Positions 110 through 6,044 of a stretch of DNA of 6,044 nucleotides are shown here, piece by piece; within the stretch, counting starts at the first letter, position 1, and each line of letters starts with the position of its first letter. This stretch comes from Desulfobacteraceae bacterium. Lineage in GTDB: Bacteria > Desulfobacterota > DSM-4660 > Desulfatiglandales > HGW-15. The notes beneath the pieces were generated by a model. That model did not search any database and was not told where the DNA came from. It saw nothing but the letters and a program-made list of their open reading frames with translations. The position numbers and the translations under genes were made by a program. The stretch covers positions 1 through 6,044 of the forward strand of contig RPPU01000303.1 of NCBI GenBank assembly GCA_003819975.1, given 5' to 3'.

Positions 110-118
110 TATGGATAT
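89..118 (+). repeat. Three direct repeats of ATGGATAT across the fic promoter and start
   Basis: ATGGATAT occurs exactly at 89-96, 99-106 and 111-118, with start-to-start distances of 10 and 12 bases, close to one helical turn each. The copies fall on the promoter spacer, on the spacer/-10 junction, and just before the ATG at 117. A protein bound here would sit on one face of the DNA and block the promoter. The Fic protein itself ends in a winged-helix-like domain, so autoregulation is possible. The repeats are seen directly; an operator role is inference, and chance repetition in AT-rich DNA is the alternative. Confidence 0.4.
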
Positions 119-1172
119 GAGTTACCAAATTATCTTAAATCTCCAAATTCCTTCGGATCTATCTAATTTAATTGCCGAAATCGATGAATTTAAGGGCCGT
201 TGGGAATCTTTAAAAAATAGCGCCCCGGATCACTTGAGCGTTTTACGAAAAGTGGCAACGATAGCATCCATCAGCTCCTCCACCCGCATCGAGGGCGCCC
301 GGCTCTCCGATGCCGATGTTGAAAACCTGCTCAAAAACATCGGGCCATATTCTTTCCGCAACCGGGATGAAGAAGAGGTCGTCGGTTATGCCGATGCCCT
401 GAATCTCATTTTCGATTCATATGCCGCCATCCCCATCGCGGAAAACCACATGAAGCAGCTGCACGGCATTCTGTTAAAATACAGCGGCAAGGATCAACGG
501 CATAAAGGCGAATATAAAAAACAGCCGAATCATGTGGAGGCTTTCGACAAAGACGGCAAAAGCATCGGGGTTGTGTTCGAGACCGCAACCCCGTTCGATA
601 CTCCTTTTTATATGAAAGATCTTACGGCTTGGTATGCGCGTGAAATAACGGAACGAACCCTTCATCCTTTGCTGATCATCGGCGGGTTCGTGGTCCATTT
701 TCTGGCTATTCACCCTTTTCAAGACGGGAACGGCCGAATGGCGCGTATTCTTACCACGCTCATGTTGTTGCAACAGGGCTATGAATATGTGCCCTATTGC
801 TCGCTTGAAAGCATTGTGGAGGAAAACAAAGAGCAATACTACCTTGCGCTGCGAAAAGCCCAAACCTCGTTCAAGTCCGATCATGCCGGAATGGAAGAAT
901 GGTTACGGTACTTATTGAGAATGCTAAAAAAGCAGAAGGATATCTTAGCGGCGCGACTTGAAGAACAAAATGCGCTCGTGCTCACCCGACTGCCGGACCT
1001 CTCAGCCGCCATTTTGCAACATGTTTCCAACCGGACCAAAGCGACCTTATCGGTTCTGATGACGCTAACGAATGCCAACCGTAATACCCTCAAGAAGCAC
1101 CTGCAAGCCCTAGTCAAAAAAGGATTGCTTAAAAAACACGGGGTACGCAAGGGGACTTGGTACACAAAGTAA
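117..1172 (+). CDS. Fic family protein (predicted AMP transferase) with C-terminal winged helix
   Basis: Fic enzymes typically transfer AMP from ATP to a Ser, Thr or Tyr hydroxyl of a target protein in the cytoplasm. Counted from the ATG at 117 (351 aa), residues 199-207 read HPFQDGNGR with Arg210 following, the full HPFxDGNGRxxR motif with catalytic His199. Upstream, S55-x3-E59-G60 matches the (S/T)xxxE(G/N) inhibitory motif; being N-terminal to the Fic core, it makes this a class II, self-inhibited Fic protein. A flap segment begins GEYKK (131-135), with Lys where Arg is usual. Residues ~295-351 look like a winged helix (basic helix around NTLKKHLQALVKKG, then a wing), common in this subfamily. 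Length is normal for the type. The frame opens with TTG at 81 and ATGs at 99, 111 and 117; I chose 117 because family members start near the YQI segment and 81-109 looks like a promoter. No good Shine-Dalgarno serves any of these starts. The target is unknown; the nearby helicase or a DNA topology or translation factor is speculation. Confidence 0.93.
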   Translation: MSYQIILNLQIPSDLSNLIAEIDEFKGRWESLKNSAPDHLSVLRKVATIASISSSTRIEGARLSDADVENLLKNIGPYSFRNRDEEEVVGYADALNLIFDSYAAIPIAENHMKQLHGILLKYSGKDQRHKGEYKKQPNHVEAFDKDGKSIGVVFETATPFDTPFYMKDLTAWYAREITERTLHPLLIIGGFVVHFLAIHPFQDGNGRMARILTTLMLLQQGYEYVPYCSLESIVEENKEQYYLALRKAQTSFKSDHAGMEEWLRYLLRMLKKQKDILAARLEEQNALVLTRLPDLSAAILQHVSNRTKATLSVLMTLTNANRNTLKKHLQALVKKGLLKKHGVRKGTWYTK

Positions 1173-1337: not shown

Positions 1338-4300
1338 ATGACCGCTATCCGCCATATCGTTCTGTTGAACCAATGCCTCAAAAGGCACATGCTCGGTTTA
1401 AGCGCCAAGGAAAAGGAAAGGTTGCGCGAAAAAATCGAGTTCCTGGAAGCCGGCATTTGGGACGCCGGCGTACGGGTCAAAAAGCTCAAAGGGCTGTCCC
1501 AAAAAGTCGTCTTTGAGGCGCGCCTCTCCAAGGGCGATCGATTGCTTTTTACCCTGGGGAAGCAGGGTCCGCACACCGCCGTTTATATCTGGGGTTTGGT
1601 CAAACATGACGACGTGTCCAAGAACGCTCAATTTATTTTTCCCGAGAACGCGCCCTTTCTGCATTTTGAACCCCAAGCCGTTGAAGAACACAACGAACTC
1701 CTGCTGGATGAAATTCCCCCGGATTATTTCAGCCAGGAAGCCGTCGAGGAAAAGTCGCCCGAGGATTACCAGCCCCAAAAATGGCTCGTGTTGCGCGAAG
1801 AAGATTGGAAAAGAATGCTGTTGACCGACGATCCCGATCGCTTGGAACTGTTCCTTTCCCTTACTCCCGAACAAGCCGGCATCCTGGAAACCCCTCCGCC
1901 GGTTTTGATCTCCGGCACGGCCGGCAGCGGCAAGACGACCCTCGCGGTTTATTATCTCCTGAAAAAAAAATGGCGGGACAAGAAAAAGCTGTTTCTGACC
2001 CACAATCGCCTGCTCAACGAATTCTCGAAAAAAATCCATCTCGGCCTGGTCTACAAAACCGAAAACGATCCCGGCGCTTCGGTTCCGGATTTTTACGTTT
2101 TCCGGGATCTCCTGTGGGAATTGGTCGGGCCGGCCAACCCGCTTTACGACGAAAACAAGGAAGTGGACCTGCGACGTTTTCTCTCCATATACCGCAACCA
2201 CCGCTTTTTTCAAAAATATGACGGCGAACTGGTATGGGAAGAAATACGCTCCATCATCAAAGGCGCCAAGCCCTGGATCCGCACCGACCGCTTCAAACGG
2301 CTTTTACAGGCCTATCTCCGGGATCAAATGCCGCCGGCAGATCTTCCGGAACTCAAGGAATTTCTTTTAAACCTGAATCCGTTCCATTTTCTCGACAAGA
2401 TCGAAAAAGCGCTCGCATCCAAAACGGCTTACCGGCGCCTGAACGATTTCATCAAAAACATGCCCACCGGCGGCCCATTGCCGGACGGGCATTGCGCGGC
2501 GCTGAACGAACTCCTCCGCATCGTCGAAAAAAACGAAAAAGCCTTTTTCACGCCTTTGCTGACTTATCAGGAATACCTGGACCTCGGCCGCAAACGAGCC
2601 CCCAATTTTCTTTACGAGCGCAAGGACCTTTACGACATCGCCGAATATTATCAGGATAAATTGCAGGCGCAAGGCGGTTGGGACGAAATCGACTTGTGCC
2701 GCCAAGCGCTCCGCAATTTGGAGAAGAACCGGGATGAACGCTTCGAATATGACCTGGTGGTCTGCGACGAAGTCCAGGATTTTACCGATATTCAAACAGC
2801 CTTGATTTTTCATTTGGCGCGGTCGCCGAGGGCGGTCGTCCTGGCCGGAGACCCGAAACAGATCATCAATCCCAGCGGTTTTCGCTGGGAGGAAGTCAAG
2901 CAAAAATTCTACGAGCGCGGCCTGGAAACGCCGCCGGTTGTTTATCTGAAGTTAAATTTCCGGTGTGTCGGAAACATCGTCAAGCTCGCCAACGCCTTGT
3001 TGGATCTCAAACAACGGCTGGTCGGTCTGGTGAGCTCGGAATTCCGCGAGGAATGGAAATTCAACGGCAAACCTCCTTTTCTCCTGGAAAACCTGGCCGA
3101 AGAAGAGATCCTGGAAAGCCTGCGCCCGCGGGCCGCCGACCAGATCATCTTGGTGCGCGACAAAACCGAACAAAAAAAATTGAAAACCGCCCTGGCCACC
3201 GAATTGGTTTTCACCATTCATGAAGCCAAGGGACTTGAATTCGACACGGTTTTTCTCTGGAAATTCACCGCCGACCCCAAATCCGTCGACCTCTGGCGCT
3301 CGATCCGCAATAACGACTCCTTCGACCGCAGCGATCATCCCCACATCCGCCATGAGATCAACCTGCTTTACGTGGCGATTACGCGGGCGCGGCAAAGACT
3401 CATTATCTTCGATCCGCGGACCGAAATATGGGACCTGCCCTCTTTGAGCGCCCACGTTTACCGTACCATGGAAAAAGAGGCGCTTTCCGAAGTCTGGCGT
3501 CGCACTTCCAATCCCGAAGAGTGGCGCAAACAAGGCGATTATTTTTTCGAGCGCGCCTATTATGCGGCCGCGGCCGAATGTTATCGCAATGCCGGCGACC
3601 CGGCGCGCCGGGAAACCGCCGAAGCCTTCGTGCTGGAAGGAAAGCGGCAGTTTCAAACCGCGGCCCTGCTTTTTACCAAATACGGCCTGCGGCGCAAGGC
3701 GGCCGAATGCCGCGAACAAGCCGGCGACTTCGGGGAAGCGGCCGGCTTATGGAAGGAACTGAACGAACCGGATCGCGCCGCGCTTTGCGAGATCCGCCTG
3801 TACGATCAAAAAGGCGATTACAATAAAGCCGCCGAAGAATGGTGCAAACGAGGCGAATTCTCAAAAGCCATCGAATGCTGGAGCAGGGCCGGTAATCACC
3901 GGAAAATGGGGGAATATTATTTCGGGCGCAAACAATACGATCGGGCGGCTGAAGCCTTTGAAAAAGCCGGCGCTTGGGGTCCGGCCGGCGCTTGTTTTCA
4001 AAAAATGAAAAAAACGGACAAGGCCGCCGACCTTTATTATCGCGCCGGGCTCTGGTCCGAAGCAATCCCCCTGCTGAAAAAAACAAAGCATCATGACAAG
4101 CTGAAGGATTGCTACATCCGCTGCAGGGATTATTACAACGCCGCCCTGCTGTGCGAGAAGGCCGCTGAAACCGATCAGGCCATCGCCCTGTTGCGGGAGT
4201 TTCAGAAACAAAGCCTCGACCATCGCGACCGCCTGGCAACGGAAGCCGAAGAGTTCCTGAAAAAACGCCGCAAGAACAGAGCGGCCGTCCGCTATTCGGC

Positions 4301-5570
4301 CTTGGGCATGTTCGACCGTTCCGCTCCGCTCCATTTTGAACAGGATCGGATCGACACGGCCTTGGCCGAATTCGAAGCCCTCGGCGATCATGAAAGAATC
4401 GCGGAGTGTCATTTCAGACGTAATGACTTCTATCAGGCCGCCTTGGTTTATGAAAGTATTTCCGCGGACGACAAATGGAAAAACGCAACGAACATGTTCG
4501 AGCTCCATATCGACAATCTCGGAAAGGACCGCGAAAAAAAAGAAACCCAATTATATCGGGAAGCGGACGATTGCTTCGCCAAAAGCCTGTTCGATTCGGC
4601 GCTGGCCCGCTATAAAGCGCTGCATGATTTCGTGAAAATCCGCGACACGTACCTCCATCTGGATCGGGACGAGGAAGCCCTCGATTATTTTTTAAACGGC
4701 AATCGCTTTCAGGACGCTCACCGCTACTTGGAGAAAAAAACCGATCCGAACGTTTCAGCCGCCTATTTGAATTCCCTGATCCTGCATCGCAAGGGTTACG
4801 CGCGTTATGACGACAGCCGGGATGAAGATCTCGATTTTTGCGCCAGGCTTTTATTGGTTTTGCTGAAAAAGCAGGAAACGCCGGAATTGCTCGCCCTAAT
4901 CGACCGGTTTCTTTCTCTTCATTATTTCAACCTTTTCCATAAGAAAACCGTTCCGGACTATATTTTTGACCTGGTTCTGACCTCGCGCAACGCCAATACC
5001 ATATTGGAAATGCTTAAATTCGCTTCCTTCGACAAACACTCCCGCAAGCTGTTGAAGTCGTTTCCCGTTGCCTTGAAAAAAAGAGCCGAGGAAAGCGGCG
5101 ATCCCGTTCTTTTGGCTTGTCATTTATTCCGGGAAGACCGATCCCGTTTTGAAGAATTGATTGCGGATATGACCCCTTCCCCGACGGATTACCGGCTCTT
5201 TATCGAAAGCCCTCACTTCCGTAAAGCCGTCGATTTTTTGATGGAAATAAACAAAATTGAAGCGGCCGCCGGCGCCTGCCGTTATCATGGCCGTTTCGAT
5301 CTTGCCGCCCGTATTTATGAAAATACCGGGAATATCGCCTGGGCGGCCCGGGATTATCGCGACGGCAAGCACTATGAAGATGCCCTGCGTTGTTGCCGAA
5401 AAATAGGCGACGAATCGGGCATCGCCCGCATCCATGAAAGAAAAATGGAATTCGAGCAGGCAATGGCCATATGGAAAAAACTCGGAAAATCCAGGGAAAT
5501 TCAACGGCTATCCAAAAAACTGGACAAACTGAAAATCAAAACGGATGACACCCAGCGCCGGTTGTTCTGA
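1338..5570 (+). CDS. RelE/ParE-like domain - UvrD-like SF1 helicase - TPR-like alpha-solenoid fusion
   Basis: This 1410-residue protein (counted from ATG 1338) has three parts. Residues ~1-95 resemble the RelE/ParE toxin fold: a helical hairpin, a KKLKG turn, an FEARLSKGDRLLF strand pair, then a strand ending KHDDV; Arg62, Arg68 and His90 are in positions reminiscent of RelE-family functional residues. Residues ~173-695 carry all SF1 helicase motifs: Q motif (Gln179), Walker A GTAGSGKTT (193-201), motif Ia THNR (221-224), Walker B DEVQD (477-481), motif III AGDPKQ (503-508), motif IV LNFR (539-542), motif V TIHEAKGLEF (626-635) and motif VI YVAITRARQR (678-687), so ATPase activity is expected. 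From ~720 on, helical repeats of about 20 residues with Gly-Asp-Phe/Tyr turns and Ala/Trp/Tyr helices resemble TPR-type solenoids. UvrD proteins with an N-terminal RelE-like domain are known to me; the long solenoid is the unusual addition, somewhat like eukaryotic TRANK1. Substrate (DNA or RNA) and role are unknown. TTG at 1302 would add 12 residues. Confidence 0.9.
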   Translation: MTAIRHIVLLNQCLKRHMLGLSAKEKERLREKIEFLEAGIWDAGVRVKKLKGLSQKVVFEARLSKGDRLLFTLGKQGPHTAVYIWGLVKHDDVSKNAQFIFPENAPFLHFEPQAVEEHNELLLDEIPPDYFSQEAVEEKSPEDYQPQKWLVLREEDWKRMLLTDDPDRLELFLSLTPEQAGILETPPPVLISGTAGSGKTTLAVYYLLKKKWRDKKKLFLTHNRLLNEFSKKIHLGLVYKTENDPGASVPDFYVFRDLLWELVGPANPLYDENKEVDLRRFLSIYRNHRFFQKYDGELVWEEIRSIIKGAKPWIRTDRFKRLLQAYLRDQMPPADLPELKEFLLNLNPFHFLDKIEKALASKTAYRRLNDFIKNMPTGGPLPDGHCAALNELLRIVEKNEKAFFTPLLTYQEYLDLGRKRAPNFLYERKDLYDIAEYYQDKLQAQGGWDEIDLCRQALRNLEKNRDERFEYDLVVCDEVQDFTDIQTALIFHLARSPRAVVLAGDPKQIINPSGFRWEEVKQKFYERGLETPPVVYLKLNFRCVGNIVKLANALLDLKQRLVGLVSSEFREEWKFNGKPPFLLENLAEEEILESLRPRAADQIILVRDKTEQKKLKTALATELVFTIHEAKGLEFDTVFLWKFTADPKSVDLWRSIRNNDSFDRSDHPHIRHEINLLYVAITRARQRLIIFDPRTEIWDLPSLSAHVYRTMEKEALSEVWRRTSNPEEWRKQGDYFFERAYYAAAAECYRNAGDPARRETAEAFVLEGKRQFQTAALLFTKYGLRRKAAECREQAGDFGEAAGLWKELNEPDRAALCEIRLYDQKGDYNKAAEEWCKRGEFSKAIECWSRAGNHRKMGEYYFGRKQYDRAAEAFEKAGAWGPAGACFQKMKKTDKAADLYYRAGLWSEAIPLLKKTKHHDKLKDCYIRCRDYYNAALLCEKAAETDQAIALLREFQKQSLDHRDRLATEAEEFLKKRRKNRAAVRYSALGMFDRSAPLHFEQDRIDTALAEFEALGDHERIAECHFRRNDFYQAALVYESISADDKWKNATNMFELHIDNLGKDREKKETQLYREADDCFAKSLFDSALARYKALHDFVKIRDTYLHLDRDEEALDYFLNGNRFQDAHRYLEKKTDPNVSAAYLNSLILHRKGYARYDDSRDEDLDFCARLLLVLLKKQETPELLALIDRFLSLHYFNLFHKKTVPDYIFDLVLTSRNANTILEMLKFASFDKHSRKLLKSFPVALKKRAEESGDPVLLACHLFREDRSRFEELIADMTPSPTDYRLFIESPHFRKAVDFLMEINKIEAAAGACRYHGRFDLAARIYENTGNIAWAARDYRDGKHYEDALRCCRKIGDESGIARIHERKMEFEQAMAIWKKLGKSREIQRLSKKLDKLKIKTDDTQRRLF
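3468..4196 (+). repeat. First solenoid block of TPR-like protein repeats
   Basis: Within the helicase fusion, residues ~711-953 contain about ten successive units of roughly 20 residues, each a short helix ending in a Gly-Asp/Glu-Phe/Tyr type turn followed by an Ala-rich helix with a conserved aromatic. Examples are GDYNKAAEEWCKRGEF and KQYDRAAEAFEKAGAW. Copies are similar at protein level, but the DNA shows no long identical repeats, which indicates old divergence and not recent expansion. Such solenoids usually bind other proteins or peptides. Confidence 0.7.
4254..5501 (+). repeat. Second and third solenoid blocks with a non-repeat helical insert
   Basis: After a charged linker (residues ~955-975, ending EEFLKKRRKNRAA), TPR-like units resume at about 985-1138 (for example DRIDTALAEFEALGDHERIAECHFRRNDFYQAALVYESI, split here as turn, helix A, helix B). 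Residues ~1139-1295 are predicted helical but lack the repeat pattern and are rich in Leu and Lys. The pattern returns at about 1298-1388 (for example GRFDLAARIYENTGN, then WAARDYRDGKHYEDALRCC) and the protein ends in a basic Lys-rich tail. The middle stretch may be a separate domain or degenerate repeats. Confidence 0.5.
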
Positions 5571-5617: not shown

Positions 5618-6044
5618 ATGGAAATCCTGATCCTGAACCAAGCCCAGGTGCAGGAACTCTTACCGGTCAACGAATGTATCGATGTGATGGCCCGGGTTTT
5701 GAAATCCTTGGCCGAAAACAAAGTCGGTATGCCCCTGCGCTCCGTGATGTGGCTGCCCGATAAAAGAGGCGCTATCGGTATGATGCCGGCTTATCAGCTT
5801 GACGCGAAGATCATGGGCTTGAAAATTGTGAGCGTTTTTCCCGACAATCACGGCACCGAATATGATTCCCATCAGGGCGCGGTCATGCTGTTCGATACCG
5901 AACATGGCTGCCCGTTGGCCGTGGTGGACGCCAGCGCCATAACCGCCATCCGCACCCCGGCGGTCTCGGCCCTGGCGACCCGGTTATTGGCTCGTCCGGA
6001 TGCCGGGGATCTCGCCATTTTGGGATCCGGTATTCAGGCTCGCG
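5618..6044 (+). CDS. Ornithine cyclodeaminase / mu-crystallin family protein, 5' part
   Basis: The window holds the first 142 codons, and the gene runs off the right edge; the family is usually about 310-350 residues. Family signs are the start ILNQAQVQELLP, Lys69 in GLKIVSVFPDN, the block from Ile111 to Leu124 (IRTPAVSALATRLL) with Arg112, and the beginning of the Rossmann NAD(P)-binding loop GSGIQAR at 136-142. Lys69 and Arg112 coincide with substrate-binding residues I recall for Pseudomonas putida ornithine cyclodeaminase. That enzyme makes proline from ornithine with loss of ammonia, but the family also includes alanine dehydrogenases, ketimine reductases and opine-type or siderophore-precursor enzymes, so the substrate cannot be told. 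The catalytic Asp of the cyclodeaminase lies beyond the edge. It is cytoplasmic, with no signal peptide. There is no apparent functional tie to the helicase upstream. Confidence 0.93.
   Translation, partial: MEILILNQAQVQELLPVNECIDVMARVLKSLAENKVGMPLRSVMWLPDKRGAIGMMPAYQLDAKIMGLKIVSVFPDNHGTEYDSHQGAVMLFDTEHGCPLAVVDASAITAIRTPAVSALATRLLARPDAGDLAILGSGIQAR

Follow-up and report, generated by a model that had tools for sequence, protein, structure and literature searches.

What might a single protein do with a toxin-type fold at its N terminus, a helicase motor behind it, and a solenoid over its second half? The locus that raises this question lies in a stretch of 6,044 nucleotides from a Desulfobacteraceae bacterium (the window; contig RPPU01000303.1), where one long gene stands between a Fic-family gene and the start of an ornithine cyclodeaminase gene. 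The features are as follows.

111 to 1172, plus strand: Fic-family gene upstream of the helicase gene, with the motifs HPFQDGNGR and STRIEG (Pfam, PADLOC, motif reading)
1338 to 5570, plus strand: open reading frame (ORF) of 1410 amino acids with a RelE fold, an SF1A helicase, an alpha-solenoid, and a C-terminal QxxLF (ORF call, homologs)
1338 to 1637, plus strand: RelE/YoeB-fold domain, residues 1 to 100 (AF2 model, Foldseek/VIA, conservation, YoeB-like alignment)
1878 to 3431, plus strand: SF1A (UvrD-like) helicase core, residues 181 to 698, motifs I to VI intact (Pfam, motif reading)
3411 to 5567, plus strand: alpha-solenoid of 50 predicted helices, residues 692 to 1410, its ends of low confidence (AF2, fold searches, conservation)
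5553 to 5567, plus strand: QRRLF, candidate pentapeptide for binding to the beta sliding clamp (homolog tails, published consensus)
5618 to 6044, plus strand: ornithine cyclodeaminase/mu-crystallin family gene, start only, with AAAGGAG just upstream

The long ORF begins with an ATG at 1338 and stops at 5568 to 5570, and a TTG lies in frame with it at 1302. It is no accidental open frame, because 569 proteins match it at an E value of ≤1e-10. Among the best 120 of these 569, 117 are longer than 1300 amino acids (the query counted); the nearest full-length homolog, P0002, shares 73% identity over 100% of the query, and many further homologs among the matches listed are 38 to 55% identical to the window protein. 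An earlier note, made from the sequence alone, had read the protein as a fusion of a RelE-like domain, an SF1 helicase, and a solenoid, and this architecture was confirmed by Pfam, AF2, and Foldseek/VIA: the N terminus has a RelE-type fold in the predicted structure and by fold search, all SF1 motifs are intact, and a TPR-like solenoid takes up about half of the protein, each as that note had proposed. The C-terminal QxxLF was absent from it.

The helicase core is that of SF1A. Pfam UvrD-helicase, UvrD_C, and UvrD_C_2 exceed their curated cutoffs over residues 185 to 690, and the motif set I, Ia, and II to VI is complete, with motif I as GTAGSGKT (193), II as DEVQD (477), III as GDPKQ (504), IV as NFR (540), V as EAKGLEFD (629), and VI as YVAITRARQ (678). 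All 13 motif residues tested (K199, D477, E478, Q480, D481, D505, Q508, N540, R542, G632, E634, R683, and R685) are the same in each of the 40 homologs aligned. The protein thus shares every helicase motif with UvrD, Rep, and PcrA and differs from them by its extra N- and C-terminal modules; against the NCBIfam pcrA, uvrD, and rep equivalogs it scores 35 to 52 bits, far below the cutoffs of 911 to 1144. Only about 85 residues separate motif IV from motif V; judged by the size of the UvrD 2B domain, a full 2B domain is therefore unlikely.

At the N terminus, the predicted fold follows the RelE type, beta-alpha-alpha and then an antiparallel sheet, and the residues K48, K49, E60, R62, R68, H90, and D91 are conserved. 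According to the accessible text of the YoeB work, Glu46 acts there as general base, Arg59 and Arg65 as transition-state arginines, and His83 as general acid (PMC3814384). In a MAFFT alignment with YoeB-like proteins, R62, R68, and H90 fall on Arg59, Arg65, and His83, and the ends of the structural alignments (VIA) agree for H90/D91 (residues 6 to 90 on 1 to 83 of 2a6r; 6 to 91 on 1 to 84 of 2a6q). Of the four catalytic positions of YoeB, three thus align with a like residue, and at the fourth K48 stands in place of Glu46; RelE itself uses lysines. An alignment of 43 rows joins the window to 42 of 77 loci, which range from Spirochaetota to Bacillota and include one Heimdallarchaeote. All 43 rows keep K48 and E60, 42 keep each of R62, R68, and H90, and 41 keep D91; the Heimdallarchaeote row has Lys in place of D91. 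The RelE pocket is therefore under strong constraint, with Lys replacing the general base. The domain is probably not dead, because the positions of Arg59, Arg65, and His83 are kept and a lysine is invariant at that of the general base, and an RNase or at least an RNA-binding function is likely from this pattern of conservation. One locus from Aminicenantes (L023) keeps K48 and E60 and has lost R62, R68, H90, and D91 within a full-length helicase-solenoid protein, so that its RelE domain may be inactivated.

The window protein resembles the ribosome-dependent mRNA interferases YoeB, YafQ, and RelE in fold and at the YoeB positions Arg59, Arg65, and His83, but differs from YoeB by Lys at Glu46, Asp at Tyr84, its fusion to a helicase, and the lack of an antitoxin gene. 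Sequence and profile similarity to known RelE/ParE families was not significant (weak ParE_like and Gp49 matches in 3 and 2 of the 43 rows, respectively; hhalign Prob 0.7). The best PDB profile match of the N terminus was 6p0f, labeled "GTPase subunit of restriction endonuclease" (E value of 0.0074), which we take to be McrB with an EVE/PUA-like N-terminal domain; this reading was given up in view of the predicted structure, which matches toxins of the RelE type. The gaps on either side of the helicase gene, up to the Fic gene and down to the ornithine cyclodeaminase gene, hold no plus-strand ORF of at least 60 amino acids, and no adjoining antitoxin gene of a type II toxin-antitoxin system was thus found.

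A RelE-helicase fusion is of a known kind, because ArmD, a component of the ARMADA type II defense system of E. coli NCTC 12900 (2025 preprint), is a RelE-UvrD fusion, as had been anticipated in the reading of the sequence. In the accessible text of that preprint, ArmD is a UvrD-family helicase with an N-terminal RelE-like domain predicted to be an RNase, loss of any of the four genes (ArmA to ArmD) abolishes protection, and the Walker A change K266A in ArmD also abolishes it, whereas protection is lost in part with the Walker B change D454N (PMC12458937). The Walker A lysine of ArmD is K266 and that of the window protein K199; ArmD belongs to a strict four-gene operon, whereas the window gene stands alone. 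The accessible description of ArmD mentions no long solenoid or clamp motif (PMC12458937), and it is by this description, not by sequence comparison, that the window protein is set apart from ArmD. Gabija GajB, NERD-UvrD, and ankyrin-UvrD proteins share a related SF1 core (PADLOC GajB profiles score up to 54.8 bits, and plasmid proteins named for ankyrin and UvrD are among the relatives of the core), but the window protein has no NERD or ankyrin part, and no GajA partner was found, the flanking genes in the window being those for the Fic and ornithine cyclodeaminase proteins.

The solenoid is the fastest-evolving part of the protein. The AF2 model of residues 692 to 1410 has a mean pLDDT of 89.8 and a pTM of 0.58, and most of its helices are 10 to 11 residues long; its last block, the end of a helix, is of low confidence (pLDDT 52). 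The superhelices returned by fold searches were generic, of TPR, IFT, and clathrin-like types, and their TM-scores were low. A sequence search with the solenoid (16 proteins) gave helicase-bearing proteins as the best matches and, outside helicases, only weak generic TPR or kinase-TPR matches. The mean pairwise identity among 40 homologs reaches 0.58 for the RelE domain and 0.62 for the motif blocks of the helicase, stands at 0.46 between motifs Ia and II, and drops to 0.26 to 0.28 over residues 1001 to 1330. Such rapid divergence would fit a surface that varies with its partners; that the solenoid could recognize a partner and gate the helicase, the sensor-plus-motor design of the earlier note, is a hypothesis.

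Of the new facts, the most informative is a recurrent clamp-type tail, which makes a role at replication sites directly testable. Q-x-x-[LM]-F occurs within the last 15 amino acids of 85 of the 117 full-length homologs among the best 120 of 569, the window protein included, compared with 0.2% (21 of 10501) of 15-mers from inside these proteins and 1.3% of tails after shuffling; any p-value for these counts would be too small, because the homologs are related and the counts are not independent. The motif forms the very C terminus in 70 of the 85 and is followed by a short extension in the other 15, and the five residues before it, aligned on the motif, are only 14 to 36% conserved. Position 4, where L or M was allowed, is L in all 85, and Leu at position 2 gives the canonical QLxLF in 46. 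The accessible parts of two reports give the beta-clamp-binding consensus as Q-phi-x-[L/M]-[F/L], strongest as QLxLF and often C-terminal (PMC11139829, PMC4549789), and in clamp clients with a C-terminal QLxLF (Pol II, Pol IV, and transposases) the pentapeptide likewise sits at or near the extreme C terminus after a poorly conserved spacer. The QRRLF of the window has the Q, L, and F of this motif but Arg instead of an aliphatic residue at position 2, making it a weak match, and clamp binding is here a prediction from the motif.

The tail is not universal. The strict motif is missing in 32 of the 117 full-length homologs among the best 120 of 569, and the state of the tail changes at least 15 times on a FastTree tree. 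A second search found it in 5 of 16 further proteins longer than 1300 amino acids, one of them cyanobacterial, and in none of the 94 shorter or other helicases, for which the pattern was Q..[LM]F; in 26 further long loci, the strict motif was present in 2 and a looser pattern in 5. These tails suggest that the QxxLF of the long-form family is a putative clamp-docking tag. The literature searched, which lacked most subscription papers, held one account of a RelE-UvrD fusion, that of ArmD (PMC12458937), and no description of the long solenoid form or of such a tail motif in it.

The distribution of the gene is sporadic and not that of a housekeeping gene. Neither of the two findings that the earlier note had named as refuting it, an N terminus without a RelE/ParE fold and homologs always in housekeeping contexts, was thus obtained. 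Matches at an E value of ≤1e-60 were found in 6 of 296 genomes of Spirochaetota (three along most of the protein and three partial), in 2 of 199 genomes of the phylum of a Marinimicrobia match, and in 1 of 297 genomes of the phylum of a delta-proteobacterial match, counts that are lower bounds, with 2 to 3 candidates scored per genome and the center genomes included. One of the three partial Spirochaetota copies carries two stops inside its frame, as would fit a dispensable gene. In a quick tree of 60 rows (SH-aLRT 97 to 99), the window protein sits with Thermodesulfobacteriota, Marinimicrobia, and a locus named as Myxococcota inside a clade rich in Spirochaetota, which suits some transfer between phyla.

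That the long form might cluster in defense islands, as the same note had supposed, found no support in a coarse test. PADLOC assigned 76 families from 116 neighbors of 21 loci (within four genes, at least 80 amino acids) and 120 from 109 ORFs taken as controls in eight of these genomes; no excess of defense genes was thus found beside the long form, in a comparison that defined ORFs by length, used a crude family count, listed the first 25 families of each tally, and had a type III CRISPR cluster in its control set. Phage records gave no match to the window protein, and viral records gave one weak contig.

Within the close clade, no common neighbor was found beyond closely related pairs and common ATPase/ABC families. 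The commonest Pfam families among the 116 long-form neighbors were AAA_14 and DUF4143, with four members each. An ATPase-like family of about 390 to 430 amino acids recurs no more than six genes away from the helicase in seven loci (L006, L007, L014, L030, L043, L055, and L056) and is probably a common accessory gene of those genomes. In six Aminicenantes/Acidobacteriota loci (L032, L035, L044, L051, L052, and L053), a gene of about 210 amino acids lies directly upstream of the helicase and, in five of the six, overlaps its start by 4 bases; the three of these genes that were scanned had no Pfam match above cutoff. We regard it as a candidate for a translationally coupled partner in that subfamily.

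The neighbors in the window itself add little to this picture. The Fic protein scores 156 bits with PADLOC SoFic and 62 bits with NCBIfam, against a cutoff of 550 for the latter, and its C terminus has weak winged-helix matches; its N-terminal STRIEG is presumably of the inhibitory-helix type. A tblastn search with the Fic protein at an E value of 1e-3 found no match in the fetched family loci, many of which have short flanks, and on this ground a Fic-helicase operon was rejected; the Fic gene is probably not part of the helicase system. In a scan of positions 1100 to 1420, no site resembled a promoter and two sites on the minus strand resembled terminators, compared with 0.3 expected, and Rfam gave no match at the gathering threshold. 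Downstream, the ornithine cyclodeaminase gene is apparently unrelated to the helicase gene. The upstream order ArmA-ArmB-ArmC was not found: the Fic gene precedes the helicase gene in the window, and the close clade has no common upstream gene.

Besides the long form, there are nine RelE-SF1 proteins of 813 to 1095 amino acids, from Bacillota and two cyanobacterial plasmids, that lack the long solenoid and the Q..[LM]F tail; one of them (L068) ends in QISFF. A second SF1 helicase gene directly adjoins the short form in four of the nine loci (L064, L068, L069, and L108), and in two of these, L064 and L108, the adjoining helicase has a Pfam NERD domain (NERD-UvrD). The paired genes of these four loci are a candidate two-helicase conflict system. 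A reverse transcriptase gene lies near the short form at L065 and DprA-like genes at L062 and L066. Among the PADLOC matches listed for 71 neighbors of seven Bacillota loci are ShosA, ShosT, PsyrA, and NERD+UvrD profiles with two members each. Judged without a control set, these neighborhoods in Bacillota and on a cyanobacterial plasmid look defense-like. The short form is rare as well: in one Bacillota order, 3 of 199 genomes matched at an E value of ≤1e-40 (center included; one match partial with two stops), and in the phylum 8 of 398 genomes matched, the whole model being covered by the center only. ArmD-like RelE-helicases can thus be placed in a wider family, whose short forms stand beside helicase-nucleases in some genomes and whose long form stands alone.

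The reading that we prefer, tentatively and at a little below an even chance, is that the long form is a stand-alone conflict or genome surveillance ATPase that would be tethered to the sliding clamp and would carry an RNase arm. Its QxxLF tail, if it acts as the motif suggests, would dock on the beta sliding clamp and bring the protein to replicating or just-replicated DNA, where the SF1A motor, its motifs intact, would translocate on single-stranded nucleic acid and strip or unwind obstacles, as expected of its family. The RelE-fold domain just before the motor would bind and probably cut RNA on site, be it a nascent transcript, an R-loop, or ribosome-bound mRNA, an activity to which the predicted fold and the conserved Arg/Arg/His positions point; the solenoid, by its predicted shape, may be an arm between motor and clamp tail that offers a fast-evolving partner surface. 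A protein of this kind is most likely a conflict- or defense-derived or stress response factor at replication sites and not an essential replication helicase; no conserved neighbor in the close clade of the window gene backs either a replication or a defense role. In a narrower form, which we consider possible but rather unlikely, a RelE-family RNase carried to the clamp would make the protein a single-chain, clamp-docked helicase and mRNA interferase that resolves or punishes collisions of replication, transcription, and translation, perhaps those on invading replicons; the solenoid would be the long arm from motor to clamp. The RelE fold is known as a ribosome-dependent toxin and the beta-clamp motif as a docking tag of replication and repair, and their presence on one SF1 motor lets the recruitment of toxin RNases to replication sites be tested.

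Three other explanations draw on much of the same evidence. The protein could be an anti-phage effector like ArmD, in which the solenoid, alone or together with a partner, detects infection, the helicase serves as a switch or a motor, RelE stops translation by ribosome-dependent mRNA cleavage, and the tail adds only proximity to replicating phage DNA. The requirement for ArmD in ARMADA type II defense, as far as the accessible text describes it (PMC12458937), speaks for such an effector, as do the second helicases, the reverse transcriptase, and the PADLOC profiles beside the short relatives, the sporadic distribution, and the fast-evolving solenoid; the neighbors of the long form, however, show no defense excess over control genes, the window gene has no gene like an antitoxin or ArmABC right beside it, and phage records are silent. 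We rate this explanation as less probable than the preferred reading but more so than the two that follow. A clamp-type tail and conserved SF1A motifs would also suit an accessory replication or repair helicase of the Rep/UvrD/PcrA type, clearing, for example, RNA polymerase ahead of forks, with the RelE fold as a noncatalytic module that binds nucleic acid or protein. The gene stands alone and has no partner conserved across the close clade, L023 persists despite its lost RelE residues, and RecB of RecBCD is reported, in the accessible part of the source, to bind the clamp by such a motif (PMC13254535). Against this explanation, which we consider improbable, stand the rarity of the gene in each of the three phyla sampled, the otherwise conserved catalytic-type RelE residues, and the low equivalog scores.

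The tail itself might bind a non-clamp partner or only cap the last solenoid helix, in which case the protein would not be at replication sites. Many homologs have K, R, P, or E at position 2 (QKELF in 16 of the 85; QRRLF in the window protein and P0002), and the solenoid model ends in its low-confidence block; against this stand the canonical QLxLF in more than half of the tails with the motif, the poor conservation of the residues before it, and the short extensions past it in 15. We doubt this explanation and keep the clamp-tethered surveillance ATPase as the preferred reading.

Some further proteins came to light beside the short relatives. Six SF1 helicases of 680 to 721 amino acids (P0191, P0192, P0195, P0199, P0213, and P0214) have N termini that read like RelE and a conserved H-D motif (xDxHDxAYRxA-like), and three of their source names combine helicase with RelE or YoeB. 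At L136 (5603 to 9193, minus strand), the N terminus of a frame of 1196 amino acids reads like the RelE domain of the family and its helicase matches the family, and a nearby frame looks McrC-like by eye.
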